Shown here: positions 4,201 to 57,894 of the stretch, piece after piece | Position numbering within the stretch: the stretch's first letter is position 1 | How the letters are laid out: each line of letters starts with the position of its first letter | Origin: Anaerolineaceae bacterium | GTDB lineage: Bacteria; Chloroflexota; Anaerolineae; Anaerolineales; Anaerolineaceae | Direction of reading: 5' to 3' | Assembly (NCBI GenBank): GCA_030653365.1 | Contig: JAURZL010000008.1 | Location: forward strand, 1 to 64,000 | Length of the DNA stretch: 64,000 bases | Translations under genes and position numbers: made by a program | Notes under the pieces: generated by a model | Seen by the model: the letters and a program-made list of their open reading frames with translations, nothing else | Database searches by the model: none | What the model was told of the DNA's origin: nothing

Positions 4201-6152
4201 TCTGATAATTGCCTGAGATTTCTTAATGTAATATTGTAATTAGAATCTGACAATATCAAATTTAGAGCTTCTTCGATTACTAAATGGACGTTTTTATCTG
4301 ATTTATTTTGTATACACCAATGTCTTAATAAGTATTCAGATGATTTGATATTATTGGCTTCTTTCGCTTTGCGAATTATTTCTAATGCAGGTAATTTTGA
4401 AAGCCAAGGCGAATTTAATAATGCAAAATCATGAAGTTCATTGCTTTTTATTTTGTCAACAACAGATTCATTATCTGGTTCTTCAGTTTTCACTGATGCT
4501 AAAAGTGCAACCAATTCTATTGGGCTTTTATTGCTATCCTTCAAATTTGCTTTATCAAGAAGCTCAGCTGCTAAATCTGGTAATAATAAAAATAAATCAG
4601 TTGCAATATTTAAAATATTATCTGGGTAGATTTTATTAGTATCTAAGCTATTAACGAGAAATGTAATTTCATCTAAATTTGATCTTGAAATTGTTATTCC
4701 TTCTTTTTCCATTGACAAATATATTTGAGAAAGCAATCTGATTTTTGTTGATAAAATATTGGAGGTATAGGCAAGTTGCATTGCCTCATCATATTTTTTC
4801 AAAGAAATTAAAGCTTTTACTTCACTAAAACCAATTAAGTCATGATCAAGGTCGTTGATTTGCGAAGTTGCGACAGAGTATTTAAATATTGAATGATCTC
4901 TACTTTCATATGCAAGATCCATAGCATCGCTTAAAAGTTTTTTGACGATTGATAAAGAATTATTTTCTACAGAAATATCTAATAAATATTTTGGAGTATA
5001 AAGCTTATCTAATTCTTCAAAATTTTTATTAATTCTTAAATATTCAGGCAGCAATATTTTTGATTCTTTATTTTCAATATTATTTGAATAGTATTGAACC
5101 AATTTTGAAATAACTTCAATTTTATAATTCTTTAGCTTTTCTTGGGAAATTTGTTTGTAAATATCAGGGAAGAAACTATAGTAGGTCTCATTCACTATTT
5201 TTATAATGTTAGTATTTAAAATAAATTTTTCAACCAAATGGTTTTCTATATTAGTTATTTGAGAAATAGTTTTAATATCTAGTGGGGTTAATGAAAAAGC
5301 CAGGATTGCAAAAATTAGTTTTTCATCTTCATTTGTTGATCCGATTATATTCTTCCATTGAACATCAAATAAAGCCTCTAACTTCGATGGCTCATTTAAG
5401 AGCAGCTCCAAAGATAATTGGCCAGATTGAAGTAATGTTTTAGTTAATGACAAATAACCGGGCAATCCTCCTGAATATTCTTGAATTTGTTTTAGTTTTT
5501 CGTCAGTTAAATTAAGTTCTTCAAGGTATTTACATGTTTCTGTGTATGAAAAACAATGTGGGTCGATTTTTTGATAACTAAATGTTATTGCATTTAATGA
5601 ATTGGTATTTATACTACCTAAAAAGTACAAACCTCGATTTAGATTAGGAAGTGGAAATAAATCGATAATTCTCTCTCCAGGGTTTCCATTAAAAGCTTTT
5701 TCAAGGCCATCAATTACAAAATAACATATTTTACGTTCTTTTGTTACTTTTTCAATTATTCTCTGAGAGAATTTTTCAAAGATGGTTTTCTGTTTTTCGA
5801 TATCTATGAGTAAAATTTCGCTTAAATCTTGGGTGCTGAAGCTATCTATATCTAAATATTCAGCCATCTGATTACACAAACTTGTCAAAAAAGCCGATTG
5901 TCTAATATTCCAAAAATCATCTGAAATAAAATAACTAAAACAACAATCCTTATTAGATTGAACAAATTGATAAAGGTGTGCTGTTTTCCCGGATGCTTTT
6001 GGGCCGGCAATTATTAATCTTGAATTTTCCGGTGAAAATAAATTATTAATTTCTCTAATTTTTGAGTCCAAAAGTATCTCTGGGTGGAAATTCATTTCAG
6101 GTATTGTGAAACTTTTTTCGGTTAAATCAACTTTTTTTGAATCTTTTGACAT
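1215..6152 (-). CDS. Giant STAND-type P-loop ATPase with C-terminal PLD-like motif, candidate antiphage sensor
   Basis: A protein of about 1645 residues. The start is placed at the ATG at 6152, which has GAGG seven bases upstream, rather than the in-frame TTG at 6164. It has a Walker A motif GPKASGKT (about 50-57) and a Walker B-like YFVIDGLEKAF (about 144-154), as in AAA/STAND ATPases. More than 1200 residues of helical repeats of TPR or HEAT type follow. The last 100 residues carry HDRYIITD (H about 1583) followed by G-x-SLN-x-x-G-KK, the pattern of a single PLD/HKD-like half-site in which His and Asp act in phosphodiester cleavage. No N-terminal effector is seen, so the effector may be C-terminal. 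The gene is strikingly AT-rich compared with the adjoining hsdR, which suggests recent transfer. Its place beside a Type I R-M system supports a defence role; the exact family is not recognised. Confidence 0.7.
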   Translation of the reverse strand: MSKDSKKVDLTEKSFTIPEMNFHPEILLDSKIREINNLFSPENSRLIIAGPKASGKTAHLYQFVQSNKDCCFSYFISDDFWNIRQSAFLTSLCNQMAEYLDIDSFSTQDLSEILLIDIEKQKTIFEKFSQRIIEKVTKERKICYFVIDGLEKAFNGNPGERIIDLFPLPNLNRGLYFLGSINTNSLNAITFSYQKIDPHCFSYTETCKYLEELNLTDEKLKQIQEYSGGLPGYLSLTKTLLQSGQLSLELLLNEPSKLEALFDVQWKNIIGSTNEDEKLIFAILAFSLTPLDIKTISQITNIENHLVEKFILNTNIIKIVNETYYSFFPDIYKQISQEKLKNYKIEVISKLVQYYSNNIENKESKILLPEYLRINKNFEELDKLYTPKYLLDISVENNSLSIVKKLLSDAMDLAYESRDHSIFKYSVATSQINDLDHDLIGFSEVKALISLKKYDEAMQLAYTSNILSTKIRLLSQIYLSMEKEGITISRSNLDEITFLVNSLDTNKIYPDNILNIATDLFLLLPDLAAELLDKANLKDSNKSPIELVALLASVKTEEPDNESVVDKIKSNELHDFALLNSPWLSKLPALEIIRKAKEANNIKSSEYLLRHWCIQNKSDKNVHLVIEEALNLILSDSNYNITLRNLRQLSDPLINCQLAARKLLIKRFENFLLSCPTSPLQERTRIELNLIEALNEFSPQESLEKLENIYHQLIESIVDVDIYCYCLSRILITYNKLNINDNLDFITTVKNQLSDGFLNLLGASADQLNVTKNIIRSVAKVDFNLALAFAEMLNTVIRRDLGIQEVLTSYIRLDNNHIDTNQIKLAISKITDTRVKENTLIKLVLILNELDSFSNPKLLNFFIDYIETIIDPVHKCKFIAYLLANSESNPQQNNELMCKNLVDSLEKIDVLWMRVECGYDLISIVSKSSPEFADEIYQRTKSIKHTSTLSNESIGVIYFETLKLAGRLVGDLDLNIGDSRNLWNLLLKAIEILPALQIKLFLFSQFAISRLKSGDKKTFDELINNKILPGINLLPLSDVFYSIISDIALAIFEFSPEEAKNWVEKLPYIIQNVTWLKISYRLITQSNINDLLDDQPSSSCFDLQIANKILKLLEYATRDQEVYLICRLMCQSISSESCKLPEGKKLDILTKIEDIIQNKLPDTLNIYHEGYFILANGQIERAKRLSAKKTKNQLPKKYNNISNQAKKIENIADRVLVLSELAVIFKEINPTLARELLDEAYKSICSVTNIKDRISRLEQIADSYSKLKNSSMVLEAYKLAKSYAQSMDGIEKDQIISSLIQSAYQIDKDLANLLSEKIDNQLANYKLEITNNSYDLSKSPHRIKLVENQFLDDEIISAASTKMLKSLTSGKAVSCSDETIFKWLLLTKKMSFNKSKNVLNWAIETLIRQAAESEKNDLAYKIISHLILNCQLIDLLGKNFSHFSTIPDNLIDNFQGLSTNKKLFKEGQRQQAIEFLSSWIKHNSSEFIKICDPYFYPDQLWLLKIIPSDIQVQILTSLEVYDKKNKNNSLTINDEKELIKSIRSELRSKYNNAWLEISSQNPPSTLVVVHGSIFANMDVDKFHDRYIITDKGGLSLGTSLNGFGKKEFFITVLSTEDSNYVSETYIDPKLQINEFFSKVVYFELQ

Positions 6153-6271
6153 GATAATCCTCAATATAATTATGACATTCCCGCGTGTGATTTTTTAAGA
6201 TGGTTGAACATTTTTATTACGTAAGAAAATTATGGATAAAATTTTGCACAGAGCTATTAACTTTTTGTTCC

Positions 6272-8590
6272 TCACCCTCTCCCCATCCCATACAACTCCA
6301 TCTGAAACCCAATAAACAACTCGCGGATCACCTTCACATCACCCAACATCCTTATAGCATCCGGCAGAGTGAAGTATTTGATCTTCAACAATTCCGGCAG
6401 TTTCTCAACAGCAAGTTCATCCACACCGCTGGTGATGTATTGCGATAGAACGAATTCAATGAATTCTTTTTCATGGAGGGTCAGGGCTTTAAAGATTCGT
6501 GGTTGCGAATGGGCGACACGCACTTCCCTGGAAATGGGTGGGTCGGCGGTGGCGATGTATTTGAGCACGTCGAAGAGGTCGCTATTTTCGGCGTTGATCA
6601 GGTTCTGCAGGGTGGCGAGGGTAGCTTTCCCAAAGCCGGCGTTGGCGAGTCGCTCGAGGAAAGCCTGGCGCGTATTGGGGTTCGACCAGATGCGGCGTAG
6701 TTCTTCCTCATCCCGGAAGAAGCCGGGCAATTCTCCGAAGAGTTTGTGCAGGAATTCTTCCACCGAGATGGGCTTGCCATCGGCATCCCAGAAGGAGGTT
6801 TGCTGCATATACTGGATCTGGCGTTCTTTGCCATCCGCCAGTTTGACGCGTACAATGATTTTTTTGCGTTCGCGTTCGTTCTCATCTTCAACGACGTATA
6901 CTTCCCCTTCGCCCTCCTTCACACCACCTTTCAGTGGTTTGGGTTCTCCTTCCGGGGGCAGGGGATCTCCATCCCATTCCGGGTCGCTGAAATGGTGGTA
7001 AGCACTGACAAAATCGTAGATGGTGAAGAATTGCTTGTCCTCATACAGGCGCGTACCGCGTCCGATGATCTGTTTGAATTCGATCATGGAGTGGATCGGG
7101 CGCATCAATACGATATTGCGCACGTTACGGGCATCCACACCGGTCGAGAGCTTGTGCGAGGTGGTCAGGATGGTCGGGATGGTTTTTTCGTTGTCCTGGA
7201 ACTCGCGCAGGTATTGTTCTCCCAGCTCGCCTTCGTTGGCGGTGACGCGCACACAGTAATGCGGATGGTGAACAGCATTGAGCTGGTTGACAAGGTCGCG
7301 CACTGCCAGGGCATGATCTTGCGAGGCACAGAAGACCAGGGTTTTCTCACGCTGGTTGATGTCGTTCAGGAAGATCTCAACGCGTTTTTTCTCACGGGCT
7401 TTGATCTCGATGATGCGGTTGAAATCAGCTTCCTTGTAAAGCCGCCCGGATTCGATCTCGCCTTCCAGCACCTGATCATCGGAGGTGTAGATGTAGTCAT
7501 CCAGGGTAGTCTGGATGCGTTTGACTTTAAAGGGCGTCAGGAAGCCATCGTTGATACCATCTTTGAGTGAATAGACATACACCGGTTCCCCAAAGTAGCG
7601 GTAGGTATCGATGTTGTCGCTGCGCCGTGGGGTGGCGGTCAAACCCAACTGCACCGCCGGTTCGAAATACTCCATAATCTTGCGCCAGGTAGATTCATCA
7701 TTGGCACCGCCACGGTGGCATTCGTCGATCACGATGAAGTCGAAGAAGTCCCGGGGATACTCACCGAAGTTGTACTGTTCTTCCTCACCGCTCATGAAGG
7801 TCTGGAAGATGGTGAAGAAGATGCTGCCATTGGTGGGTACCCTTCCGAGCTTGGTGATCTGGTTGGGACGGATGCGTACCAGGGCATCCTCCGGGAAGGC
7901 GGAGAAAGTGTTGAAAGCCTGATCGGCAAGGATGTTGCGATCCGCCAGGAAGAGGATGCGCGGGATACGTTTCCCGTTGCGTTGCAAATTCCAGCGAGTC
8001 TGATAGAGCTTCCAAGCAATTTGAAAGGCGATGAAGGTTTTACCGGTCCCGGTGGCCAGGGTGAGCAGGATGCGTTGTTGACCCTCAGCGATGGCTGCCA
8101 TTGTTTTGTTGACCGCGATCTCCTGGTAGTAGCGCAGTTCCTTGGAGCCTCCAACATCTTCATAGGGCACCTGATTGAATTTCTCGAGCCAGTCGTTCTG
8201 CTGAGCGAAGGTCAGATCCCAGAGTTCCTGTGGGGTAGGGAATTTGAGTACATCGCCTTCTGCACCGCTGAGCATGTTGATCTGATAGATGGAATTGCCA
8301 TTGGCAGCGAAGGTGTAAGTGAGCTGCATTTTATGGGCGTAATTCTTGGCCTGGGCAACACCTTCCCCGACCGGGACCTCGTCGCATTTGGCTTCGATGA
8401 TCGCCAGTTTTCGACGGTTGTACTCTACGATATAATCGGCAATCAGTGGTTTTTCGCGACCACGTCCGACCATGATACGACCGGCGTTGATCTGGAATTC
8501 ACGCAGGATGCGGCTGCCGGGCACGACTCCCCAACCCGCAGCACGCAATTGCGGTTCAATTCGTTCGGCTCTGGTATCGGCTTCGTTCAT
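6272..8590 (-). CDS. hsdR: Type I restriction enzyme, R (motor-nuclease) subunit
   Basis: HsdR of 772 residues, about the length of the EcoEI-type subunit. It translocates DNA with ATP and cleaves far from the recognition site. An N-terminal PD-(D/E)xK nuclease is visible as D52 followed by E66-A-K68. The SF2 helicase motor shows ATGTGKT (179-185), a DECH box (289-292) and LTATP (317-321). A long C-terminal domain for binding the M/S subunits follows. GGGGG precedes the ATG at 8590. It lies 142 bases downstream of hsdS in the same direction, so cotranscription is likely. All key motifs are intact and the subunit looks functional. Confidence 0.93.
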   Translation of the reverse strand: MNEADTRAERIEPQLRAAGWGVVPGSRILREFQINAGRIMVGRGREKPLIADYIVEYNRRKLAIIEAKCDEVPVGEGVAQAKNYAHKMQLTYTFAANGNSIYQINMLSGAEGDVLKFPTPQELWDLTFAQQNDWLEKFNQVPYEDVGGSKELRYYQEIAVNKTMAAIAEGQQRILLTLATGTGKTFIAFQIAWKLYQTRWNLQRNGKRIPRILFLADRNILADQAFNTFSAFPEDALVRIRPNQITKLGRVPTNGSIFFTIFQTFMSGEEEQYNFGEYPRDFFDFIVIDECHRGGANDESTWRKIMEYFEPAVQLGLTATPRRSDNIDTYRYFGEPVYVYSLKDGINDGFLTPFKVKRIQTTLDDYIYTSDDQVLEGEIESGRLYKEADFNRIIEIKAREKKRVEIFLNDINQREKTLVFCASQDHALAVRDLVNQLNAVHHPHYCVRVTANEGELGEQYLREFQDNEKTIPTILTTSHKLSTGVDARNVRNIVLMRPIHSMIEFKQIIGRGTRLYEDKQFFTIYDFVSAYHHFSDPEWDGDPLPPEGEPKPLKGGVKEGEGEVYVVEDENERERKKIIVRVKLADGKERQIQYMQQTSFWDADGKPISVEEFLHKLFGELPGFFRDEEELRRIWSNPNTRQAFLERLANAGFGKATLATLQNLINAENSDLFDVLKYIATADPPISREVRVAHSQPRIFKALTLHEKEFIEFVLSQYITSGVDELAVEKLPELLKIKYFTLPDAIRMLGDVKVIRELFIGFQMELYGMGRG

Positions 8591-8732
8591 GGCTGCCCCC
8601 TTATCTTACGGGATCAAATAATTCATTATGGCAGTAGTGAGAATGGGATGATTGAATGGGTGGATATATTAGTGAGAATAACATATTAGGTCTCATATGT
8701 CAGTTTTTTGGGATTTTTGTGATATATCAGCT

Positions 8733-9782
8733 TCATAATTCACCCTGGAAGGCTTTGTGGAGGATGGATTGCTTGAGTTCTTGGAGAAGGGATATTTTTA
8801 TTTTATAAGCTGATACAAGGCTTAGAGTTTGATCTTGTAAATTATCAAGCTTTTCGACGATGCGTTGTTGTTCGGGGAGTGGGGGAAAGTTGGCTTCCAT
8901 AGCATACACATCATTGCGATTTATCCCAGGTTTCACACCTTTAGCTAATTTTTGTAATTGTAAATTTTTTAAAAGATAGAATAAAAATTTCAGATCATAT
9001 TTTGTTTGGTCGAACACAATAAAATATGTAACATCCAATGGCCAAAAAATTTCACTGGTTAAAGTAACTTCCCCTGCCGAGCCTTTCCGCCCAATTATGA
9101 TAGACGGTTGATCAAAATAGAAGCTATCAGTATGATCCTTTATTCCGTTTGCACCATAAACAGGATATTTACCGTCTGTTCTTCGTTTATCAGGAGGTAA
9201 AGGTTTTCCATACTCTAATTTGAGTGCTTCACCTAATTTTTGCGTATACCAATCACCAGTTTGGGAAAAAATATTGTTTATGTAATTATTAAATATTTCT
9301 TGTGATTTTTGAATATTCTTCTCTGTATTCTCAATTGCCTGGTCAATGGCAGCGAAGGATTGGTCGAGGATCTCGACGATGCGTTGTTGTTCAGGGAGTG
9401 GGGGAAAAACAGCTTCAATTGAATATACATCATTCCGATTAATTCCAGGCTTGACCCCTTTTGCAAATTTCTGTAATTGGAGATTGCTCAAAAGGTAAAA
9501 GAGAAATTTAAGGCTATATTTTTCCTGATCAAAAACCACATAATAGGTGACATCAAGAGGCCAGAATTTTTCATCTGTTAAGTTTATTTCTCCTGCAGAA
9601 CCCTTCCTTCCAATAATGATGGATGGTTTGTTATAAAAGTATTTATCCGTGCGGTCTTTTATTCCATTTGCACCATAAACAGGATATTTCCCATCGGATT
9701 TTCTTAGGTTGGGAGGTAAAGGTTTACCGTAATTTAAGGTAATTACCTCACCTAGTTTTTTATGTTCCCAAAACTTTTTCAT
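8733..9782 (-). CDS. hsdS: Type I restriction-modification specificity subunit with duplicated TRDs
   Basis: HsdS of 349 residues, the DNA-recognition subunit that joins two HsdM copies. It consists of two target-recognition domains, each ending in PPLPEQQRIVE and followed by a coiled-coil spacer. The two halves (about 5-133 and 182-310) are identical at about 101 of 129 positions by hand alignment. Ordinary HsdS halves differ in their TRDs, so this predicts a symmetric bipartite target. The gene overlaps hsdM by four bases (ATGA) and has no clear ribosome-binding site, consistent with translational coupling. It is more AT-rich than its hsdM and hsdR partners. Confidence 0.92.
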   Translation of the reverse strand: MKKFWEHKKLGEVITLNYGKPLPPNLRKSDGKYPVYGANGIKDRTDKYFYNKPSIIIGRKGSAGEINLTDEKFWPLDVTYYVVFDQEKYSLKFLFYLLSNLQLQKFAKGVKPGINRNDVYSIEAVFPPLPEQQRIVEILDQSFAAIDQAIENTEKNIQKSQEIFNNYINNIFSQTGDWYTQKLGEALKLEYGKPLPPDKRRTDGKYPVYGANGIKDHTDSFYFDQPSIIIGRKGSAGEVTLTSEIFWPLDVTYFIVFDQTKYDLKFLFYLLKNLQLQKLAKGVKPGINRNDVYAMEANFPPLPEQQRIVEKLDNLQDQTLSLVSAYKIKISLLQELKQSILHKAFQGEL

Positions 9783-11233
9783 AGTAACTTGCTGATCGAA
9801 TCAAGAATTTCGTTGGTTTGCTGGTCCAGAACTTGAATTTCTTTGAGAATTTCCAAAGGATCGCGGTGATTATCTACTTCAGTTTGTTTCGGATTTTTTA
9901 CTGAAAGGTCAAATGTGCCTTTATCAATGTCTTTCATATTCAATGACCAAGAATTCTCAGAATCTGCTTTTGTCCTCTGAAATTCCACAAACTCCGCTAA
10001 ATCCTGCTCATTTAACGGGTTAGTCTTACCAAGATTGCGATCCAGATTCAACTGGTAATACCAGATCTTTTCTGAGGGGGCACCTTTTTCAAAGAACAGC
10101 ACCACGGTTTTGACGCCGGCACCGGTGAAGACCCCACCGGGCAGGTCGAGCACAGTGTGCAAATTGCAGCTGGAGAACAGTTCCTTGCGCAGGCTGATGG
10201 CAGCATTGTCGGTGTTGGAAAGAAAGGTGTTCTTGATAACCACACCAGCGCGTCCTCCGGGTTTGAGGATTTTGATGAAGTGCTGCAGGAAGAGGAAGGC
10301 AGTCTCACCGGTTTTGATGGGGAAGTTGTTCTGCACCTCACCGCGTTCCTTGCCGCCAAAGGGCGGATTGGCGAGTACGATGTGATAGCGATCCTTATCC
10401 TGCAGGTCGCTGACGTTCTCAGCGAGCGTGTTAACATGCTGAATATTGGGTGCTTCGATGCCGTGCAGGATCATGTTCATGATGCCGATGATATACGCCA
10501 GCGATTTCTTCTCTTTGCCATAGAAGGTGCGCGTTTGCAGGGTCTCGATATCGCTAGTGGAGAGGGCACGGCTGTTTTTGAGGTATTCGAAGGCTTCCAC
10601 CAGAAAGCCGGCGGAGCCGACCGCCCCGTCATAGATCGTCTCACCGATCTGTGGAGCAACCACCTTAACGATGGTCTTAATCAGCGGTCGCGGGGTGTAA
10701 TACTCGCCACCGTTGCGTCCGGCATTGCCCATCTTTTTGATCTTTTCCTCGTAGAGATGCGACATCTCGTGTTTTTCAGTCTGAGATTGGAAGCGCAATT
10801 CGTCGACCAGGTTTATCACCCCACGCAGGTTGTAACCACTCTGGACTTTGTTGCGCAGTTCGCTGAAAATTTGACCGATCTTATATTCGATCGTATCGGC
10901 ATTATCGGCGGTGGTTGTGAAGCGCTTGAGGTAAGGAAAGAGCTGGTGCTCAACAAAATCAATCAGATCTGGTCCGGTGAGGGCTTTGTTATGATCGATC
11001 CTGCCATTACCGTTACGTGGTGCTGCCCAGGCTTCCCATTGGAACTCAGGTGCTATGATGGGCTGATATGTTTTGCCCTGCAGCTCGGCTGAGAGTCTCT
11101 TTTCCTTCTCGAGATCGTCGAGATATTTGAGGAAAAGGATCCAGGAAGTCTGCTCCACATAATCGAGTTCACTGCTGCAACCGGCATCCTTCCATAATTG
11201 GTCATCGATGTTTTTAAATGTTTGTTCAAACAA
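9779..11233 (-). CDS. hsdM: Type I N6-adenine DNA methyltransferase, M subunit
   Basis: HsdM of 484 residues; with HsdS it methylates adenine at the recognition site and protects host DNA. The AdoMet motif appears as DGAVGSAGFL (202-211) and the catalytic motif IV as NPPF (289-292). A helical N-terminal domain begins MFEQTFKNIDDQLWKDAG, and GGEYYTPRPL (175-184) is typical of the family. The start is a TTG at 11233 preceded by AGGAG eight bases upstream; no nearer ATG fits. It is the first gene of the leftward hsdM-hsdS-hsdR set. Confidence 0.93.
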   Translation of the reverse strand: MFEQTFKNIDDQLWKDAGCSSELDYVEQTSWILFLKYLDDLEKEKRLSAELQGKTYQPIIAPEFQWEAWAAPRNGNGRIDHNKALTGPDLIDFVEHQLFPYLKRFTTTADNADTIEYKIGQIFSELRNKVQSGYNLRGVINLVDELRFQSQTEKHEMSHLYEEKIKKMGNAGRNGGEYYTPRPLIKTIVKVVAPQIGETIYDGAVGSAGFLVEAFEYLKNSRALSTSDIETLQTRTFYGKEKKSLAYIIGIMNMILHGIEAPNIQHVNTLAENVSDLQDKDRYHIVLANPPFGGKERGEVQNNFPIKTGETAFLFLQHFIKILKPGGRAGVVIKNTFLSNTDNAAISLRKELFSSCNLHTVLDLPGGVFTGAGVKTVVLFFEKGAPSEKIWYYQLNLDRNLGKTNPLNEQDLAEFVEFQRTKADSENSWSLNMKDIDKGTFDLSVKNPKQTEVDNHRDPLEILKEIQVLDQQTNEILDSISKLL

Positions 11234-19317: not shown

Positions 19318-20394
19318 TCACCTTCCTTGTAATAATTCGAAGAGTGGTTTGTTTATGTAATAACTGCTACGCCAGAGTTTTTGTTTCTCCAAAAAGCCCG
19401 CATCGGCTAAGGTATCCAAATATCGTGCTGCTGCTGCTCTTTGAACACCAACATCTCGGATCACAAAATCGATTTTTGTGTAAGGATGTTTGAAAAGAGT
19501 GGTTAACAAATCTAGTGAATACACTCTTGGCAGTTGTGTTTTGATCCTTTCCTGATAATCTACCATCAAATTCTTCAATTTGTGAATAGTCTCGATTGTC
19601 TCCGAAGAAGTATTTTCCAGACCCCGCAACATAAACTTTAGCCAGGTTTCCCAATTGTCATCGATCGGATCTTCTCGAAAATGGGCAAGGTACGTGCTTT
19701 TTTCGCGAACAATGAAACGGCTGAGATAAAGAATTGGAAGATCCAACAAACCGTGCTTTACCAGATAGAGTAAATTTAGAATCCGGCCGGTACGACCGTT
19801 TCCGTCATAAAATGGGTGGATTTTTTCAAATTGGTAATGAATCAATGCCATTTTCACCAATGGATCTAATACCTGATTTGAATCTTCGTTAAAAAAGTCA
19901 ATTAGTCGTTCAAGCAATTCCACGATTTGATCATGATCTTGCGGTGGAGTGTAAATTATTTCTCCGGTGGCTTTGTTAACCACATTGGTGCCCGGTTTGA
20001 TTCGAATGCCTGGTCCTGGTTTACCGATTATCAATGTGGTTTGAATGGTTATCAGATCATCCAGGGTGAGTTGTCCTTGAGATTTAATCCGTTCGAAACC
20101 GTGTTTTAACGCTTCAGAATAGCGACTAACTTCCTTTGCAGCTGCATTATTAAACTGTGGAATGTCCAACTCTTGTTTAAACAATTCATCATGTGAGGTA
20201 ATTATATTTTCTAATGCTGAACTGTCTTTTGCCTCTTGCAATGTAAGAGTGTTCAATAATATTTCCTGATTGGGTAGCAGAGGAGCAACGCCTTTGAGTT
20301 CTGCCAATCGGCGGTGAGCCATGATGAGTTGCTTTACCAATTCATCTGTTTGTGCAACCATATCAGGTGGAAAGGCGTATAAATCAGAAATCAT
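19318..20394 (-). CDS. Fic family protein, class II AMPylator-like
   Basis: A 358-residue protein. The core motif HPFYDGNGRTGR (193-204) matches HPFx(D/E)GNGRxxR, used to transfer AMP or another nucleotide moiety from NTPs to target hydroxyl groups. An N-terminal helix carries SSALEN (58-63), matching the inhibitory (S/T)xxxE(G/N) motif, so it is self-inhibited like class II Fic proteins and needs no separate antitoxin. A C-terminal winged-helix segment (about 290-350) resembles DNA-binding domains of this group. It is a single gene on the reverse strand followed by a palindromic array. Its target is unknown. Confidence 0.9.
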   Translation of the reverse strand: MISDLYAFPPDMVAQTDELVKQLIMAHRRLAELKGVAPLLPNQEILLNTLTLQEAKDSSALENIITSHDELFKQELDIPQFNNAAAKEVSRYSEALKHGFERIKSQGQLTLDDLITIQTTLIIGKPGPGIRIKPGTNVVNKATGEIIYTPPQDHDQIVELLERLIDFFNEDSNQVLDPLVKMALIHYQFEKIHPFYDGNGRTGRILNLLYLVKHGLLDLPILYLSRFIVREKSTYLAHFREDPIDDNWETWLKFMLRGLENTSSETIETIHKLKNLMVDYQERIKTQLPRVYSLDLLTTLFKHPYTKIDFVIRDVGVQRAAAARYLDTLADAGFLEKQKLWRSSYYINKPLFELLQGR

Positions 20395-46062: not shown

Positions 46063-47304
46063 ATGCCGAAAAAAACTAAACTTTATATTTCTGGAAGCAT
46101 CCTTGGTTGGTTGATAATCATTTTCATATCAGCAATCTGGAATCTATCCCAGGCGCGCAACAATCAACATGATATTTATCTGGAGAGTGGGCGTTCCTTG
46201 TTTGACCTGATTGTTACTACACGGGAATGGAATAGCCGTCATGGCGGTGTATATGTCCCGATCACAGAGGACATTCAGCCAAATCCTTACCTGGATATCG
46301 CTAACCGGGATGTTACAACGACAACTGGACAGGAATTGACGCTCATCAATCCTGCTTTTATGACAAGATTGATTTCCCAAATCGCTGAAGAGAATAACAA
46401 TGTCGTATTTCATATAACCAGTCTCAATCCTATTCGCCCGGGAAATTTGCCTGAGGATTGGGAGGGTATTGCCTTGAAACTGTTCGAAGAGGAAGCCAAT
46501 AACGAATATCATGAATATATTCAGACAGAACAGAGCACGTATTTTCGATATATGGCTCCCCTGATCACTGAAACAGCCTGTCTTGCCTGTCATGAAAAGC
46601 AGGGATACAAACTCGGTGAGATTCGCGGGGGAATCAGTATAACTTTCCCGGTTAAAATCACGACACCCTGGATTCTGATTTTCAGTCATGTGTTAATTGG
46701 ATTAATCGGTGGTCTCATAATTTATTGGTTTGGATCAAAATTAAGTGAAAATATCATAGATTTGGAAAGATTATCCAATGTGGATGGGTTGACCCAAATT
46801 TCTAATCGCAGATATTTTGATGATTATGTGAACAGAGAATTCCTGAATAGCAGAAGGAATAAAAATCCTTTGTCAATTGTGATTTGCGATATTGATAATT
46901 TCAAACCTTTCAATGATACATATGGCCATATTGAGGGTGACGAATGTTTGAAAAAAGTTGCCCTTACAATGAGAACGACTATAAAACGACCCACGGATCT
47001 GGTGGCACGATTTGGGGGAGAAGAATTTGGATTCGTATTACCCAATACTAATGCTGAGGGAGCATTGGTGATAGGTAATCTGTTACGTGACAACATAGAA
47101 TCGCTGAAAATTCCTCATAAAGCCAGCGAAGTTAGCAATTTTGTCACGATTAGTATTGGCTTTATTACCTACAAGGGCGAGGATATTAGCCTGAAACAGC
47201 TGCTGGATCTTGTAGATAACGCCATGTATAAAGCAAAGGTTGCAGGAAAAAATAAAGTCGTACAGGACCGGATTCCTGAAGTGACTATCTACCCTATGAT
47301 TTAA
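46063..47304 (+). CDS. Diguanylate cyclase with heme-binding DUF3365-like sensor
   Basis: A 413-residue membrane protein. A first helix (about 8-27), an extracytoplasmic sensor (about 30-200) with a CLACH heme-c motif (173-177) and PF/Y features of the DUF3365/Tll0287-like domain, a second helix (about 204-223), then a GGDEF domain. The active site reads GGEEF (318-322), an accepted functional variant, and RPTD (309-312) forms the RxxD inhibitory site. It should make c-di-GMP in response to a redox, gas or light-linked signal at the heme. No operon partner is seen. Confidence 0.9.
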   Translation: MPKKTKLYISGSILGWLIIIFISAIWNLSQARNNQHDIYLESGRSLFDLIVTTREWNSRHGGVYVPITEDIQPNPYLDIANRDVTTTTGQELTLINPAFMTRLISQIAEENNNVVFHITSLNPIRPGNLPEDWEGIALKLFEEEANNEYHEYIQTEQSTYFRYMAPLITETACLACHEKQGYKLGEIRGGISITFPVKITTPWILIFSHVLIGLIGGLIIYWFGSKLSENIIDLERLSNVDGLTQISNRRYFDDYVNREFLNSRRNKNPLSIVICDIDNFKPFNDTYGHIEGDECLKKVALTMRTTIKRPTDLVARFGGEEFGFVLPNTNAEGALVIGNLLRDNIESLKIPHKASEVSNFVTISIGFITYKGEDISLKQLLDLVDNAMYKAKVAGKNKVVQDRIPEVTIYPMI

Positions 47305-51919: not shown

Positions 51920-52222
51920 ATGTTACACGAACCTGCTACCCCTGCGGAAAAAGATCCCGCCGGTCCGTATAAGATGCTTCTGGGTATTCGCATGTTTATT
52001 TTTTATGCCTTGTTTTATGCGGCCTTTGTCTTTATCAACCTGCTCTTCCCTGAATGGATGGGAATAATTGTCTTCATGGGGCTAAATCTGGCAACAGTCT
52101 ATGGGTTTTTATTGATCATTGTTGCCTTGATTGAAGCGCTTATTTATAACTATATGTGCCATAAAAAAGAAGTGGAACTTGCACATACTGAATCCGAATC
52201 ATCCGAATCAGAGCGAGGTTAA
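51920..52222 (+). CDS. DUF485-like small membrane subunit of the symporter
   Basis: A 100-residue protein with AAGGAGAG upstream. Two hydrophobic helices (about 25-45 and 52-77) lie between a charged N-terminus and an acidic tail rich in Ser and Glu. This plan is typical of DUF485/YjcH proteins that precede acetate symporters of the ActP type; DUF4212, another small partner, is a less likely alternative. The gene ends five bases before the symporter and is surely cotranscribed. Confidence 0.8.
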   Translation: MLHEPATPAEKDPAGPYKMLLGIRMFIFYALFYAAFVFINLLFPEWMGIIVFMGLNLATVYGFLLIIVALIEALIYNYMCHKKEVELAHTESESSESERG

Positions 52223-52227
52223 GAGTT

Positions 52228-54123
52228 ATGGCAATTTTAGTTTTTGTCTTATTTGTTGTGTTTGTGATCGGTCTTTCCCTTTATTTAGGAAATAAAGCCA
52301 AAACTTCGAGTGGTTATTACACTGCCGGCGGGAATATTCATTGGGGTGTGAATGGGGTTGCCTTTGCCGGTGATTACCTTTCAGCGGCGTCCTTCCTTGG
52401 AATTTGCGGCATGATTGCGACAGTCGGATATGATGGGTTTTTATACTCCATCGGCTACCTGGCTGGATGGATTGTCGCGTTGTTTGTGGTGGCTGAACCC
52501 CTCAAGCGTTTGGGTAAATATACATTTACGGATGCTTTGGACGCAAACTATAATTCGCGAGGTATCAAATTGGCGGCTGCCATCAGCACGCTGGTTGTTT
52601 CGATCTGTTATTTGATTCCTCAAATGGTTGGGGCGGGTGTGCTGGTAGAACCTTTGTTGGGCATTCCACATGCCTGGGGAGTTTTAATGGTAGGTGCCAT
52701 TGTTATTACCATTGTGGCTACAGCAGGTATGGCATCCACAACTTACGTGCAATTTTTAAAAGGATTTTTATTAATTATTTTCTCCACTGTGCTGGTTGGA
52801 GCTGTAGTTGTTCGTGGTTTAAATACCCAACCTGATCAAGGCGGTAAGGTTGAGTTTTATCATTACACCAGTTTACCAGCTGCCAGAAATGGTGATCAGA
52901 TATCGGTCACAGATGCTGATTGGGATGTAGTTGACAAGGTGGATATCAAAGGTGGATTGGAGTTTGTAAAATTATCTCAGGGCGGTACTGAGACATGGTG
53001 GTTTGTATCAGAAGACGATAATGGGCTGGTACTCAAAGAGACACAGTCGGTGGTAACCAAGGGTGAAGTCAAATGGATTAATGGGGCACCTGCTTCAGAA
53101 GATAATCAATTACGCCAGGTAGGTAATCTGGAGAAAATTGCTGGAAAAACGAATGTAAATACCGGAAAATTGAATGTCTTTTCCTTTTTGGCAGGAATCA
53201 CTGATAAAGAGACTGTCGTACGAACTTGGAAAACTGTAAATTTCTTGGATAATTCTGGAGAAAAAGCTACCGTATATTATCCTTACGATGTTACTGGAGA
53301 CCGTATCATGCGACCCGGTTTAAAGTTCAAAGTGGAAGGCTCATTTTTAGAGCGACTGGACTTTCTCTCCTTGATGCTGGCTCTCTTCATGGGAACGGCT
53401 GCCTTACCACATATTCTGATCCGATATTACACGGTTCCGAACCCTGCTAGTGCGCGTAAATCAACGATTGTGGCAATTGCTGCTATTGGCTTTTTCTATA
53501 TTCTGACTTTGTTTATGGGTCTTGGAGCAATGGTGAATGGCACGATCAATCCAGCTGACAGCAATATGGCAGCTCCTTTGCTCGCCCGCTCGTATGGTCA
53601 ATTGTTGTTTGCCATCATCTCTGCGATTGCATTTGCAACAGTACTGGGTACCGTCAGCGGGTTGATTGTCGCTGCATCCGGGGCAGTAGCGCACGATTTG
53701 TTTGATCGTTTCTTTAAAATCAAAATGGATGATCGTCAGAAAGTGCGGGCTGGAAAGATTTCTGCCTTTGTGATTGGAGGTATTGCCATTCTGCTGGGCA
53801 TCCTGTTTAAGGGGATGAATGTATCCTTCCTGGTGGGGTTGGCTTTCGCTGTGGCTGCTTCTGCTAATCTACCGGCGATCGTTATGTTATTGTTCTGGAA
53901 AAAAACCACTGCCAAAGGTATCGCTGCCTCGATTGTGGTCGGTGTGGTGGTTTCATTGGGTCTGATTGCGTTTTCACCAGAACTATATACCCTCTATGGG
54001 CTCAATCCGCTTGACGCACCAATTCCATTGAATAATCCAGGAATCATATCGATCCCATTGAGCTTTATCACCCTGGTGATTGTCTCGTTACTAACACCAA
54101 AGAAAGATAACGGCGCTGTATAA
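52228..54123 (+). CDS. actP: Sodium:solute symporter, ActP-like acetate permease
   Basis: A 631-residue SSS-family transporter. The N-terminal YYTAGGNIHWGVNGVAFAGDY and LSAASFLGICG are characteristic of cation-acetate symporters. About 13 helices are expected. Residues about 200-380 form a large hydrophilic insertion (DWDVVDKVDIKGG, LRQVGNLEKIAG) between helices, longer than in E. coli ActP. Substrate is probably acetate or another short carboxylate. It follows the DUF485-like subunit and precedes a PHP-to-DUF294 signalling protein, a recurrent partner type for such symporters. Confidence 0.85.
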   Translation: MAILVFVLFVVFVIGLSLYLGNKAKTSSGYYTAGGNIHWGVNGVAFAGDYLSAASFLGICGMIATVGYDGFLYSIGYLAGWIVALFVVAEPLKRLGKYTFTDALDANYNSRGIKLAAAISTLVVSICYLIPQMVGAGVLVEPLLGIPHAWGVLMVGAIVITIVATAGMASTTYVQFLKGFLLIIFSTVLVGAVVVRGLNTQPDQGGKVEFYHYTSLPAARNGDQISVTDADWDVVDKVDIKGGLEFVKLSQGGTETWWFVSEDDNGLVLKETQSVVTKGEVKWINGAPASEDNQLRQVGNLEKIAGKTNVNTGKLNVFSFLAGITDKETVVRTWKTVNFLDNSGEKATVYYPYDVTGDRIMRPGLKFKVEGSFLERLDFLSLMLALFMGTAALPHILIRYYTVPNPASARKSTIVAIAAIGFFYILTLFMGLGAMVNGTINPADSNMAAPLLARSYGQLLFAIISAIAFATVLGTVSGLIVAASGAVAHDLFDRFFKIKMDDRQKVRAGKISAFVIGGIAILLGILFKGMNVSFLVGLAFAVAASANLPAIVMLLFWKKTTAKGIAASIVVGVVVSLGLIAFSPELYTLYGLNPLDAPIPLNNPGIISIPLSFITLVIVSLLTPKKDNGAV

Positions 54124-54131
54124 TAAAAAAT

Positions 54132-54171
54132 AAGAAAGCGGGAGATGACTCATATCCCCTCCTGCTTTCTT
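54132..54171 (+). terminator. Hairpin between the symporter and the PHP-DUF294 gene
   Basis: AAGAAAGCGGGAG (54132-54144) pairs with CTCCTGCTTTCTT (54159-54171) as a 13-base stem with one G-U pair. No long T run follows, so it may be a weak terminator or attenuator that sets downstream expression. It leaves the ATG at 54178 as the likely start; the ATG at 54145 lies in the loop. Confidence 0.6.
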
Positions 54172-54177
54172 TCTCCT

Positions 54178-57100
54178 ATGAACGAAACAATTCTGGTCAA
54201 TTTCCACTGCCATTCGCTCTTCAGCGATGGTGATCAAACTCCGGAGGTCCTGGCGGCCGATCTGGCAGCCAATGGGGTGCGTTATGCAGCGTTAACGGAT
54301 CATGACAGTATTGAAGGATACCAACGATTTCAAGATGCATTGAAAAAACGAGGGGTAACCGGTTTTCCTGGTTTGGAATTGACAACACAATTTCAAGGCA
54401 GGGAAATTCACCTGCTTTGTTATGGGTTCGATCCAAACCACCCTGATCTGGTAACCACACTGGTTTCGATGAGGCAGGCTCGCAACCTGGAAGTATATAG
54501 TATTGCAGATTCAATTCGAAAAATGGGCAATACAACTTCGAATGGTGATTCGGATCAACCTGTCATAAATGCTGCTCCGAGAGGAATCCTGACGGCGAGT
54601 GATGCCATTGACCTGGTTCATAGGGCTGGCGGGAAAGTTTTTCTAGCTCATCCATATTTTTATGAAACCGACTCAGACAATCTTGATGAATTTCTGGCTG
54701 CATTAAAAAAACTTGGTTTGGATGGCCTGGAGGCGATTTATGCCCCCTATTTCAATGACAAACGTGAAATATTACGCCAACTAGCCTACAAGTATGATCT
54801 CCTGATTAGTGCCGGGACTGATTTCCACACGTTAAATGATTCAAGCCTGGTAGGATATGGTATCGAGATTTCTCGGGAGGATTGGGATCATTTTCGAAAA
54901 GCGCTGTTTGCGGGAGGGACGTTTGATATTGAAATGGGGAATGATCGTCAGTTGATATCTCCCGGAGAACAGAGCAATTCCCGAGTTAAACCTCACCAAT
55001 TTCGTAAACGATCGTACCTTATACGGATCTTTTTACCCACATTATTTGCTATCGCCCTTTTTCTTGCCGTAATCTGGGGCATCATGTTGCCTTCTTTTGA
55101 AGAAACTTTGCTCGATCGAAAAAAAGAAATGATCCATGAATTGACCAGTTCTGCCTGGAGCATCCTGGCTTCATATGAACAAGATGAACGAAATGGTTTG
55201 CTCACCCGCGAACAGGCACAATCAATGGCTGTTACACGGATTGAGGCGCTACGATATGGTCCGGAGGGAAAAGATTATTTCTGGATTCAGGATCAGGAAC
55301 CTCGGATGATCATGCACCCCTACAGAAGTGATTTAAACGGTGAGGATTTACGCAGTTTCAGCGATCCACGCGGAGTTGCTATCTTTGTTGAATTCGCTGA
55401 ATTGGTTCGTCGTCAGGGTGAAGGTTATATTGAATATGTCTGGCAATGGAAGGATGATCCCGACCGTCTGGAACCGAAAGAATCATTTGTTAAAGGGTTT
55501 GAACCCTGGGGATGGGTGATTGGCACTGGCATCTATACTGATGATGTGAATGATGAAATTGCCCGGATTGAGCAGAGTCTGATCAATACTTCTTTGACGA
55601 TATCAGGGATTATTGTGGTGTTGCTTTTGTTTGTGTTACAGCAGAGTTTGAGGATTGAGTTTGAGCGCCAGGAAATTCTTGATGAATTACGTGAATCCAC
55701 TGAGCGCTATCATACTTTAATTGAAGCAACCACAGAAGGTACTTTGTTATTTGTTGAGGAACGCTGTCGATATGCCAATCCTACTTTTCTGAATATGACC
55801 GGGTACACAACCCGGCAGCTGGAATTTGTTGATATGGCGGATCTGCTCCCAAAGGAAATGGAAAACAATGCAATTTGGGAACGATTCAAAAGGATGGCCA
55901 GTGATGAACCAGTAGTTGAAGAAGTATTTGAGGGTTTTTTGAAGAAGGCAGATGGCAGTCATTTGGAATGTGTTCTGGCTTTAAATCCAATTCAATTTGC
56001 TGGCCAACGTGGTTTTATTCTTTTGGCTCGCGATATTGCGCGTTCTATAGAAGTCGCCCCTGACCAGGGCGTTATTCATGCCGCACAGGCTGCACCAATC
56101 GGAATCTTTCGTGCGCGGGCAGCCAGAAGAGCTGTTTTTATTGAAATGAACCAGGAAGTACGTTCATTGTTGGCAAATATTAAACATGATCAACCAGCAT
56201 TGGCGGATCTCTTTCTGGATCCTGATGAATATGATGAGTTTTATCAAAACCTGCAATCAAATCGGGTGGTCAAAAATATTACAACCCACATAGAAGACAA
56301 AGATCTTTCAACGAGGATATTGTCTATTTCCGCTCAACTGGTGGAGGATTCTGTCGATCACACCAGTTATATCGATGGCTTGATCGAAGATGTGACGATA
56401 ACCCGTAAGCAGGAGGCTGGTCGTGAGGCGTTGATCCAAAAACTTCAGGCATCGTTGTTATTCTTACATGAGCCAATCTCCAGTTTAGGCCGGGATGCTT
56501 TGGTTTGTGATATGTACTCCAGTATTGAGCAGGTTGCCCGCCAGATGACAGTACGAAAGGTCACCGCAGCTTTGGTCTCAAGTGGATCAGAAACTATCAT
56601 TGGAATAGTCACCGATCACGATCTGCGAGAGCGGGTTTTAGCCGAAAAAGTGCAAATCACCGCACCTATCCATACCATCATGAGTGCACCATTGACCAAA
56701 ATTTCAGAACAGGCATTGATCTATGAGGCATTACTGCGAATGGAAGAATTTGGTGTGCGGCATTTGGCGGTGGAAGATCGTAATGGAAGGATTGTGAGCG
56801 TTATTGACAATAAATCGCTGGTGCAGTTCCAACGCTATGGACCAATCGTGATCAACCGAGAGATTGCCCGGGCGGTGACAACCGAAGAAGTGGCTCAATG
56901 TACCAAACGGGCACCAGCACTGGTAAAAACATTAATTGACAGCAGCACCCGTCCGCGGCATGTCACCTATTTGCTGGCATCCATTTGTGATGCAGTAACG
57001 ATTCGATTGGTGGAATTGGCGATCGAAGAATTGGGTCCACCTCCAATCGCTTTTGCTTTCATAGCGATGGGAAGTCAGGGGCGCCAGGAACAAACTCTTG

Positions 57101-57894
57101 TAACCGACCAGGATAATGGGATTATTTATTCAAACTCGTCGGATGAAAATTCTTCAGCTGTATCTGATTACTTCCTAAAAATGGGCAAGAGAGTCAGCGA
57201 AGGGCTCGATCATGCAGGTTATCCCTATTGCCGCGGTGGCGTTATGGCCAGTAACCCACGTTGGTGCCGGTCTTTGTCTGAATGGCTCTCGGGTTTTCAG
57301 GATTGGGTGAGTAAGTCTGAACCACAGGAGATCATTGACCTGAGTATCTTCTTTGACTTGCGCACAGTTTATGGAGATGTGGATTTGACGCGGGAGTTAC
57401 GGCGTTTCATCCACACAATTGTAGCGGATGATCCTGGATTCATTCATCATTTTGCTAAAAATGCTATCGGGTTCAAACCACCAATGCGGTTGCCGGGGAA
57501 TATCTATGTGGGTGGCGGTTCAACCGAGCATCCGGGCGAGATCAACCTGAAAGATGCGATGGCGCCCATGGTTAATTTTGCAAGGTTGTATGCATTACGA
57601 TACCAGGTTATTCAGACTCACACATTGGAAAGGATTGAGGCATTGTGTGAGCGCAACTTAATTCAAACAACCAGTCGGGATGAGATGATTGCCGCATATG
57701 ACTTTTTGATGCAATTACGGCTGCAATCCCAGGTTGAAGCAATTCAGGCAGGAAAGCACCCTCAAAATAATATTCATCCCGGTAAATTAGGGTATATCCA
57801 ACAGGAATCGATGAAGCAGGCATTTGCACAGATCTCAGCGGTACAAAAGAAAATCGGATATGATTTTTTGGGGGGAGGGAGAGATGGCTTATAA
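54178..57894 (+). CDS. PHP-sCache-PAS-CBS-DUF294 multidomain protein
   Basis: A 1238-residue membrane protein. Domains in order: PHP phosphoesterase (3-260; HCH at 10-12, LTDHDS, GLEL, AGTDFH); membrane helix (about 281-303); extracytoplasmic sCache sensor (about 305-460; GKDYFWIQD and GWVIGTGIY); second helix (about 472-492); two PAS-like domains (about 505-745); a CBS pair (about 770-890); DUF294 nucleotidyltransferase-like domain with MGSQGRQEQT and TDQDNG (about 920-1060); DUF294 C-terminal helical domain. Separate CBS-DUF294 proteins are known beside acetate-type symporters; here they are fused to a sensor and a PHP enzyme. It probably controls transport or a nucleotide signal in response to ligand. 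The start lacks a clear ribosome-binding site. Confidence 0.85.
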   Translation: MNETILVNFHCHSLFSDGDQTPEVLAADLAANGVRYAALTDHDSIEGYQRFQDALKKRGVTGFPGLELTTQFQGREIHLLCYGFDPNHPDLVTTLVSMRQARNLEVYSIADSIRKMGNTTSNGDSDQPVINAAPRGILTASDAIDLVHRAGGKVFLAHPYFYETDSDNLDEFLAALKKLGLDGLEAIYAPYFNDKREILRQLAYKYDLLISAGTDFHTLNDSSLVGYGIEISREDWDHFRKALFAGGTFDIEMGNDRQLISPGEQSNSRVKPHQFRKRSYLIRIFLPTLFAIALFLAVIWGIMLPSFEETLLDRKKEMIHELTSSAWSILASYEQDERNGLLTREQAQSMAVTRIEALRYGPEGKDYFWIQDQEPRMIMHPYRSDLNGEDLRSFSDPRGVAIFVEFAELVRRQGEGYIEYVWQWKDDPDRLEPKESFVKGFEPWGWVIGTGIYTDDVNDEIARIEQSLINTSLTISGIIVVLLLFVLQQSLRIEFERQEILDELRESTERYHTLIEATTEGTLLFVEERCRYANPTFLNMTGYTTRQLEFVDMADLLPKEMENNAIWERFKRMASDEPVVEEVFEGFLKKADGSHLECVLALNPIQFAGQRGFILLARDIARSIEVAPDQGVIHAAQAAPIGIFRARAARRAVFIEMNQEVRSLLANIKHDQPALADLFLDPDEYDEFYQNLQSNRVVKNITTHIEDKDLSTRILSISAQLVEDSVDHTSYIDGLIEDVTITRKQEAGREALIQKLQASLLFLHEPISSLGRDALVCDMYSSIEQVARQMTVRKVTAALVSSGSETIIGIVTDHDLRERVLAEKVQITAPIHTIMSAPLTKISEQALIYEALLRMEEFGVRHLAVEDRNGRIVSVIDNKSLVQFQRYGPIVINREIARAVTTEEVAQCTKRAPALVKTLIDSSTRPRHVTYLLASICDAVTIRLVELAIEELGPPPIAFAFIAMGSQGRQEQTLVTDQDNGIIYSNSSDENSSAVSDYFLKMGKRVSEGLDHAGYPYCRGGVMASNPRWCRSLSEWLSGFQDWVSKSEPQEIIDLSIFFDLRTVYGDVDLTRELRRFIHTIVADDPGFIHHFAKNAIGFKPPMRLPGNIYVGGGSTEHPGEINLKDAMAPMVNFARLYALRYQVIQTHTLERIEALCERNLIQTTSRDEMIAAYDFLMQLRLQSQVEAIQAGKHPQNNIHPGKLGYIQQESMKQAFAQISAVQKKIGYDFLGGGRDGL

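Follow-up and report, generated by a model that had tools for sequence, protein, structure and literature searches.

What kind of signalling could be carried out by a single polypeptide that joins an apparent membrane sensor to a nucleotidyltransferase at one end and a phosphoesterase at the other? The question is raised by a row of three genes in an Anaerolineaceae bacterium (assembly GCA_030653365.1, contig JAURZL010000008.1), of which we analysed positions 1 to 64,000, hereafter the window. The last gene of the row (54145-57894; this and all features of the row lie on the plus strand) encodes a protein of 1,249 residues in the order PHP, transmembrane helix, sCache_2, transmembrane helix, PAS, PAS, CBS pair, DUF294 nucleotidyltransferase and DUF294_C. 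An earlier note on this stretch had proposed that one such chain may sense a ligand, bind adenine nucleotides at CBS, modify a target through the nucleotidyltransferase and, through PHP, reverse the modification or hydrolyse a nucleotide. We consider the chances about even that the protein is a transmembrane, carboxylate-gated switch that would reversibly nucleotidylate a partner. The observation that bears most directly on this proposal is comparative: the PHP domain sits in an exchangeable phosphoesterase slot.

To describe this slot we collected DUF294 genes from two sources. A seven-row alignment of the window protein with six of its seven full-length relatives served to scan genome contigs; 382 relatives were confirmed, of which we took the best 80. 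In addition, 120 loci were chosen by DUF294 only, the PF03445 rows with E<1e-25 being fetched from three surveys (60 of 72, 20 of 25 and 40 of 58). With 11 of 199 DUF294 genes dropped as more than 95% identical, these loci and the window gave 188 non-redundant genes, 84 with and 104 without sCache (loci L001-L038 and L119-L141 lie outside this set). Among the 84 sCache-DUF294 proteins, 49, the window protein included, carry a fused PHP domain, two have PHP in a neighbouring open reading frame (ORF), one is fused to a DEDDh exonuclease, 18 adjoin a gene for a calcineurin-type phosphoesterase (MPE) of one of three families, and 14 have no partner that we could find. The fused exonuclease, in a Bacteroidales protein (L112), takes the very N-terminal position of PHP (PF00929 E=1.9e-15), and the PHP-less sCache relatives begin near the first membrane helix. 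The first MPE family (MPE-A) is encoded directly upstream on the same strand in 13 sCache relatives, the second (MPE-B) abuts downstream on the same strand in three, and the third (MPE-C) lies downstream on the opposite strand in two. In the class that lacks sCache, 69 of 104 DUF294 genes lie within 600 nucleotides of a gene for a DEDDh exonuclease, 68 of them on the same strand. Conversely, the 3 kb on either side of the 49 PHP fusions gave no further PHP, DEDDh or MPE match, flanks being short at contig ends. That PHP stands beside the remaining domains by chance is disfavoured both by its exchange for other phosphoesterases and by this exclusivity, and the suggestion that it may reverse or antagonize the nucleotidyltransferase thereby gains comparative support.

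How far can these counts be trusted? These same loci served for the iterative training of the DEDDh, PHP and MPE profiles, so that the background measured in them (4 DEDDh, 0 PHP and 0 MPE matches in 1.48 Mb beyond 1.5 kb) is too low. A chance DEDDh neighbour should nevertheless be rare, because ten whole genomes, all chosen for holding DUF294, contain only 26 RNase_T genes (2.6 per genome), some of which are the DUF294 neighbours themselves. Loose sequence patterns proved incomplete (GH[LYH]H in 4 of 18 MPE, [HN]..(.)[FY]D in 54 of 83 DEDDh), and we relied on Pfam instead, which recognized all 5 Metallophos and all 7 RNase_T partner enzymes scanned, L112 included; this speaks to their family rather than to an intact active site in every partner. 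Two annotated plasmids show the pair: DUF294 and exonuclease genes overlap on a Hymenobacter plasmid, and on a Paracoccus denitrificans plasmid the exonuclease lies in the gene row of DUF294 with two genes between. In the literature searched we met the pair only in a table footnote of PMC3412718, according to which amtB of Geobacillus and Anoxybacillus seems to lie in one operon together with dnaQ and a gene for DUF294. Two loci (L258, L259) read DUF485-SSF-DUF294-DEDDh-DUF294, that is, two nucleotidyltransferases flanking one exonuclease, and in two others (L204, L209) the DUF294 gene adjoins an ORF that resembles a sodium:neurotransmitter symporter, another sodium-coupled type, by a name read from the sequence. 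In four partnerless sCache loci (L083, L089, L090, L093) a gene for a xylose-isomerase-like TIM barrel lies downstream on the opposite strand (PF01261 in L090, the only member scanned); we did not adopt these genes as a further eraser, given their placement and the closeness of the species in the tree.

Is the fusion itself genuine? The earlier note had left room for an assembly join of two genes, with absence from all relatives as its sign. This is ruled out, since many separate assemblies contain the fusion at full length. Full-length matches were found in 8 of 61 genomes searched (the organism's own, G000, and 60 relatives), the other seven at 56-74% identity; one of them (G033) was flagged for a TAG in the matched frame, yet a 1,244-residue ORF was found there. 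By record label the PHP fusions come from at least eight phyla. The labels in the tree comprise Chloroflexota, Armatimonadota, Omnitrophota, Verrucomicrobiota, Pseudomonadota, Thermodesulfobacteriota, Myxococcota, Spirochaetota, Gemmatimonadota and Acidobacteriota, of which single ones may be wrong because the rows are mostly metagenome bins. The tree, which is unrooted and omits one of the 84 proteins as too short, needs a single PHP change with a support of 99, either one gain or one loss. DUF294 as such is widespread (PF03445 matches, weak ones included, in 72 of 198, 37 of 301 and 77 of 148 genomes of the three surveys). The PHP fusion is rare in an unselected sample rather than common across the phylum: an even draw of 301 Chloroflexota genomes gave 25 strong DUF294 rows, with a fusion-length frame (1,255 residues) in the window's own genome only and open frames of 428-687 residues in the others.

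The C-terminal half of the protein is the candidate writer. It matches PF03445 (residues 922-1061, 56908-57327; E=1.3e-47, 161.6 bits, cut-off 21) followed in order by PF10335, the GlnD/GlnE-like helical domain DUF294_C (residues 1098-1241, 57436-57867; E=3.4e-35, 121.4 bits, cut-off 22.5), and so belongs to the DUF294/DUF294_C family. Its nucleotidyltransferase motif G976-X11-D988-X-D990 is intact, with the sequence GSQGRQEQTLVTDQD, and we take this motif to resemble those of DrrA and GlnE. G-X11-D-X-D is found in 82 of 84 sCache and 99 of 104 other DUF294 proteins, D988 being kept in 84 and D990 in 82 of the former. When the AlphaFold2 model of residues 635-1249 (mean predicted local distance difference test score, pLDDT, 84.0) was compared with known structures by Foldseek, DrrA ranked first (6yx5_B, E=2.5e-9, target TM-score, TMt, 0.67), and the GlnE halves 1v4a and 3k7d followed at 0.51 and 0.48; the next matches were CBS pairs, all among the best 50 of 1290. 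The similarity to DrrA and GlnE is moderate, with 11-13% identity. In fold the DUF294 half thus resembles protein AMPylases, and it may itself transfer AMP. DUF294_C is grouped with the C-terminal domains of GlnD and GlnE in PMC3710099.

At the opposite end, the PHP phosphoesterase (residues ~18-232, 54196-54840) is the candidate eraser. It matches PF02811 with E=1.2e-8 (35.9 bits, cut-off 26.4). Its metal ligands, which from family knowledge we take to be H21, H23, D28, H53, E78, H89, H169, D226 and H228, are all present, and among the PHP fusions seven are kept in 49 of 49 and the other two in 48 of 49 (one H89D, one H228G). With D988 and D990 kept as well, the active-site residues of both enzymes are intact. 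In fold, the domain resembles RNase AM (7ug9, TMt 0.81), with which it also has conserved metal ligands in common; a further relative, 2yb1, was solved with AMP and phosphate. RNase AM is a stand-alone enzyme, whereas PHP here is one domain of a fusion, and the scores against NF041577 (1.7e-36, 125.8 bits, cut-off 400) and NF047791 (102.5 bits, cut-off 375) are so far below the NCBIfam cut-offs that we do not regard it as an equivalog of RNase AM or of the 3',5'-nucleoside bisphosphate phosphatase.

What might such a pair of enzymes respond to? The sCache_2 domain (residues ~320-478, 55102-55578; Pfam E=1.3e-35) matches PscD (5g4y) and Adeh_3718 (4k08) in sequence and superposes on both with TMt 0.90, at 1.8 and 1.9 A. 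In PscD, according to PMC5062169, Tyr90, His103, Tyr143 and Lys156 hydrogen-bond the propionate carboxylate, Trp92, Trp145 and Phe126 form walls, and glycolate and acetate bind with affinities of 23 uM and 31 uM. The aligned residues of the window protein are Y378, H391, Y431 and K445 for the carboxylate and W380, W433 and F414 for the walls, and a check of the letters at the PscD positions shows that all seven (YWHFYWK) are identical in the window protein, 5g4y and 4k08. Across the 84 sCache-DUF294 proteins six of the positions are invariant, and W433 departs from this in a single protein (83 of 84). The scan peptides KDYFWIQ or MIMHPYR span three of the seven positions; the other four are free of this bias, as are the eight sCache proteins chosen via DUF294 only, in all of which the seven residues are present. 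The pocket predicts a C2/C3 monocarboxylate as the ligand, be it acetate, propionate or glycolate, which it does not tell apart. It is common to a wider group rather than special to the fusions, because among other sCache ORFs in the loci that of L038 shares it and that of L239 has six of the seven residues; that of L082 has two. Whereas PscD, Adeh_3718, McpP (an sCache_2 sensor whose likeness we take from PMC5062169) and MctS (alike by sequence, NF052443 3.2e-22) feed methyl-accepting chemotaxis protein or histidine kinase outputs, the output here is a nucleotidyltransferase/PHP pair.

Two hydrophobic helices (residues ~289-318, 55009-55098, within helix 288-349 of the AlphaFold2 model; residues ~481-500, 55585-55644, within helix 465-528) flank sCache_2, which makes it probable that the sensor is extracytoplasmic, as had been supposed. 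Since PHP precedes the first helix and the nucleotidyltransferase follows the second, both would face the same side of the membrane, and the basic residues preceding the first helix suggest that this side is the cytoplasm. Of the two PAS domains claimed earlier, the first (residues 520-631, 55702-56037) is recognized by Pfam (PF13188/PF13426/PF00989, that is, PAS_8/PAS_9/PAS). It is the only one that Pfam sees in the window protein; the second (residues ~640-749, 56062-56391) is PAS-like by the order of its alpha/beta elements in two AlphaFold2 models (mean pLDDT of the fusion model 79.2, block pLDDT 71-88 at 651-750). The CBS pair (residues ~780-894, 56482-56826) is supported by Pfam (E=5.2e-12 in two stretches), by phmmer matches that are themselves CBS pairs, and by Foldseek (2yzi_A, TMt 0.85). 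In one relative (L105, 1,130 residues) a PHP fusion has no CBS match; the pair can thus be lost, and nucleotide sensing by CBS would not be universal. The reading frame may be slightly shorter than given: GGGAG abuts the ATG at 54145 directly, and in several relatives the first residue corresponds to Met12, which makes the start at 54145 doubtful and one at 54178 possible.

In the scenario that we envision, for which both enzyme activities, the sense of the regulation, the ligand of CBS and the target are inferred, acetate from outside the cell, or a C2/C3 monocarboxylate like it, would occupy the sCache pocket, and the signal would travel down the second membrane helix and on through both PAS domains into the cytoplasmic half. 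The CBS pair might contribute information on adenine nucleotides, and the combined signals would tune two opposing enzymes in the chain against each other, a DUF294 writer that attaches a nucleotide to a target and an N-terminal PHP eraser that hydrolyses the phosphodiester and so removes it. The likeliest target would be a protein located at the membrane, either the adjacent DUF485/SSF symporter or an enzyme of carboxylate metabolism. We prefer protein as the substrate for two reasons: the structures nearest to the writer in fold belong to protein-modifying enzymes, and there is a nuclease, RNase Z, that works as a de-AMPylase (PMC12663964). A bolder extension, possible in our view and somewhat more likely wrong than right, is that DUF294 proteins at large are unrecognized reversible nucleotidylation switches with an eraser slot filled by the folds that also proofread DNA polymerases (DEDDh, PHP or calcineurin/Mre11-type), the window protein being a transmembrane form that would turn extracellular acetate/propionate directly into nucleotidylation of the neighbouring symporter. 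If the carboxylate-gated switch exists, extracellular carboxylate sensing that leads to protein nucleotidylation would join kinases, chemoreceptors and cyclases as a signalling principle. Since the chain unites sensor, writer and eraser, its ligand is predicted and a candidate target is encoded next door, one protein should be enough to test the reaction.

Several observations weigh against a reversible protein switch, or against its generality. DUF294 is common, yet we found no measured activity for any DUF294 protein in the literature searched. Deletion of Pflu5625 of P. fluorescens, a member of the CrbS/R regulon whose cAMP-binding, CBS and nucleotidyltransferase domains suggest a DUF294 protein, had a negligible effect on growth on acetate according to PMC5715377. 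The eight sCache proteins found regardless of sCache comprise two with MPE-A, three with MPE-B, three without partner and none with PHP, so that the PHP share of 49 in 84 reflects nearness to the window protein. Of the 13 MPE-A-type proteins, 10 have an SSF gene no more than 3 kb away, as against 31 of the 104 no-sCache proteins; a symporter target is therefore impossible for the family as a whole and plausible for the membrane form only. The organism's genome, moreover, gave no match to AcsA and none to acetate kinase. Acs-centred acetate assimilation is accordingly unsupported, and growth on acetate would be an unsafe phenotype here. The genome does encode two Succ_CoA_lig proteins of ~700 residues that could be ADP-forming acetyl-CoA synthetases, and the carboxylate, instead of supporting growth, could be a product of fermentation that the cell senses and takes up again.

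A further point on the same side concerns substrates: the phosphoesterase types found here (PHP, DEDDh, calcineurin) are chiefly known from work on nucleic acids and nucleotides, so that RNA or a nucleotide would fit as the target too. The alternative that survives best, though we think it unlikely, is the following: the nucleotidyltransferase would extend RNA (or DNA) 3' ends and the PHP, DEDDh or calcineurin-type partner would trim them, in a sensor-controlled cousin of proofreading. By our own comparison, the three exchangeable folds parallel those that proofread DNA polymerases, PHP and DEDD in one account (PMC5636811) and an Mre11-like site in PolD in another (PMC10721889). RNase AM is among the nearest relatives of PHP, and in a Chloroflexota locus (L144) a 510-residue ORF that reads as RNase Y-like lies two genes before a DUF294-DEDDh pair; ORFs of 510 residues recur at the equivalent place in other loci of the set. 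Tailing and trimming are harder to reconcile with a nucleotidyltransferase and helical-bundle half that resembles protein AMPylases, with the lack of any RNA-tailing enzyme among the best 50 of 1290 fold matches and of any RNA-binding family in a Pfam scan to E=1, and with a membrane receptor linked to a symporter, which would be unusual for RNA processing.

Alternatively, the two enzymes may have independent outputs, PHP being an unrelated housekeeping phosphatase (of pAp, for instance) fused by chance while the nucleotidyltransferase alone regulates the symporter. Proteins for which no phosphoesterase was found nearby, 14 of 84 with sCache and 35 of 104 without, speak against our reading, and the 14 also speak for this one, with the qualifications that four of the 14 loci lie near a contig end and that, MPE-B and MPE-C profiles having been added after inspection of the partnerless sCache loci, the 35 were searched with first-pass profiles only. 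We give independent outputs a small chance, since two further unrelated phosphoesterase folds take the slot, among them the N-terminally fused DEDDh of L112, and since a second phosphoesterase was found beside none of the 49 PHP fusions. Slimmer still is the prospect of a diffusible signal, in which the nucleotidyltransferase would make a small nucleotide messenger for the phosphoesterase to degrade. Pairs of writer and degrader are usual for nucleotide messengers, and relatives of PHP act on small nucleotides (2yb1 with its AMP and phosphate, NF041577); however, clustering of the neighbours of the scan loci yielded no widely recurring receptor or effector besides the symporter genes, and the closest nucleotidyltransferase folds transfer to protein. 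A degenerate receptor or scaffold, whose enzymes would serve as binding domains only, for example to gate the symporter, is very improbable given catalytic ligands conserved across at least eight phylum labels (PHP 48-49 of 49, D988 84 of 84, D990 82 of 84).

How does the proposed reversible switch relate to known systems? It is already known that proteins of the CBS-DUF294 type can adjoin acetate symporters or share their regulation (PMC5715377). These proteins of acetate loci, often of cNMP-CBS-DUF294 type, resemble the window protein in CBS pair, DUF294, DUF294_C and symporter neighbourhood, whereas no sCache, PAS or PHP and no membrane sensor in the same chain is described for them. In the acetate locus on the P. 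denitrificans plasmid (acs-DUF4212-SSF-DUF294-hypothetical-response regulator-3'-5' exonuclease) the phosphoesterase is a separate exonuclease gene, while here it is a fused PHP. GlnE and GlnD likewise combine a nucleotidyltransferase fold with a helical C-terminal domain, and GlnE has the bifunctional logic of attachment and removal that we propose. Its eraser, however, is a second nucleotidyltransferase domain, and the window protein has one such domain only. GlnD uses an HD domain as eraser and also has ACT sensor domains. To our knowledge, neither GlnE nor GlnD carries PHP, Cache or CBS. Both are cytosolic and respond to nitrogen signals, whereas the window protein is a membrane protein. 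A Pfam scan of the fusion to E=1 gave no HD or ACT family and GlnD_UR_UTase at just E=0.068 over 38 residues; lacking the second nucleotidyltransferase domain, HD and ACT, it is not a member of GlnE/GlnD. A parallel for transporter control on the GlnD/GlnE side is GlnK-AmtB, as touched upon in PMC10710835. In the open-access literature, which was the scope of our search, we found no description of a membrane receptor with PHP or of the exchange of three unrelated erasers.

The two genes upstream supply the candidate target. The row consists of three head-to-tail ORFs (51920-52222, 52228-54123 and 54145-57894, of 100, 631 and 1,249 residues) separated by 5 and then 21 nucleotides; ORF calling and Pfam agree with the coordinates and domain list first drawn up for the row, the second PAS domain coming from the models alone. 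The first ORF, preceded by a Shine-Dalgarno-like AGGAGA, is a DUF485-like small membrane protein. Its score against PF04341 (E=2.3e-5, 24.7 bits) is below the curated cut-off of 28, while its position and size are as expected for a DUF485 symporter partner. A homologue at the same position was found in six of seven related genomes fetched, and in the same six the DUF485 and SSF genes are both present directly upstream of the fusion; the seventh begins at a contig end there. The second ORF is an ActP/MctC-like SSF sodium/monocarboxylate symporter (PF00474 E=2.9e-70), the sole SSF gene found in the genome. The name acetate-type given to it earlier is loose, as no curated ActP, MctC or VC_2705 model scores above its cut-off (MctC 435.8 bits against 670, PRK09395 ActP 387.2 against 750, TIGR03648 250.4 against 320.75, TIGR02711 323.1 against 1099.25). 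The linkage claimed between fusion and symporter is conserved: 40 of the 49 PHP fusions have an SSF gene no more than 3 kb away, and for 35 of the 49 such a gene is located upstream on the same strand. Relative to the ActP/MctC models, the symporter has an insert of ~160 residues (~196-357), which from the helix count may be extracytoplasmic, and 33 of 40 symporter frames adjoining PHP fusions are long as well (at least 610 residues). Promoter and terminator prediction was uninformative, with 10 and 5 sites against 14.6 and 6.9 expected.

Elsewhere in the window, by names read from the sequence, the minus strand from 1215 to 11233 holds a type I restriction-modification-like set (ORFs 6272-8590, 8733-9782 and 9779-11233), followed by a P-loop-containing protein of 1,649 residues (1215-6164). 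An ORF on the plus strand (46063-47304) is diguanylate-cyclase-like (GGEEF), with a CxxCH-containing region preceding. Finally, a minus-strand ORF at 19318-20394 has a Fic-type motif, HPFYDGNGRTGR, and may encode another nucleotidylating enzyme.

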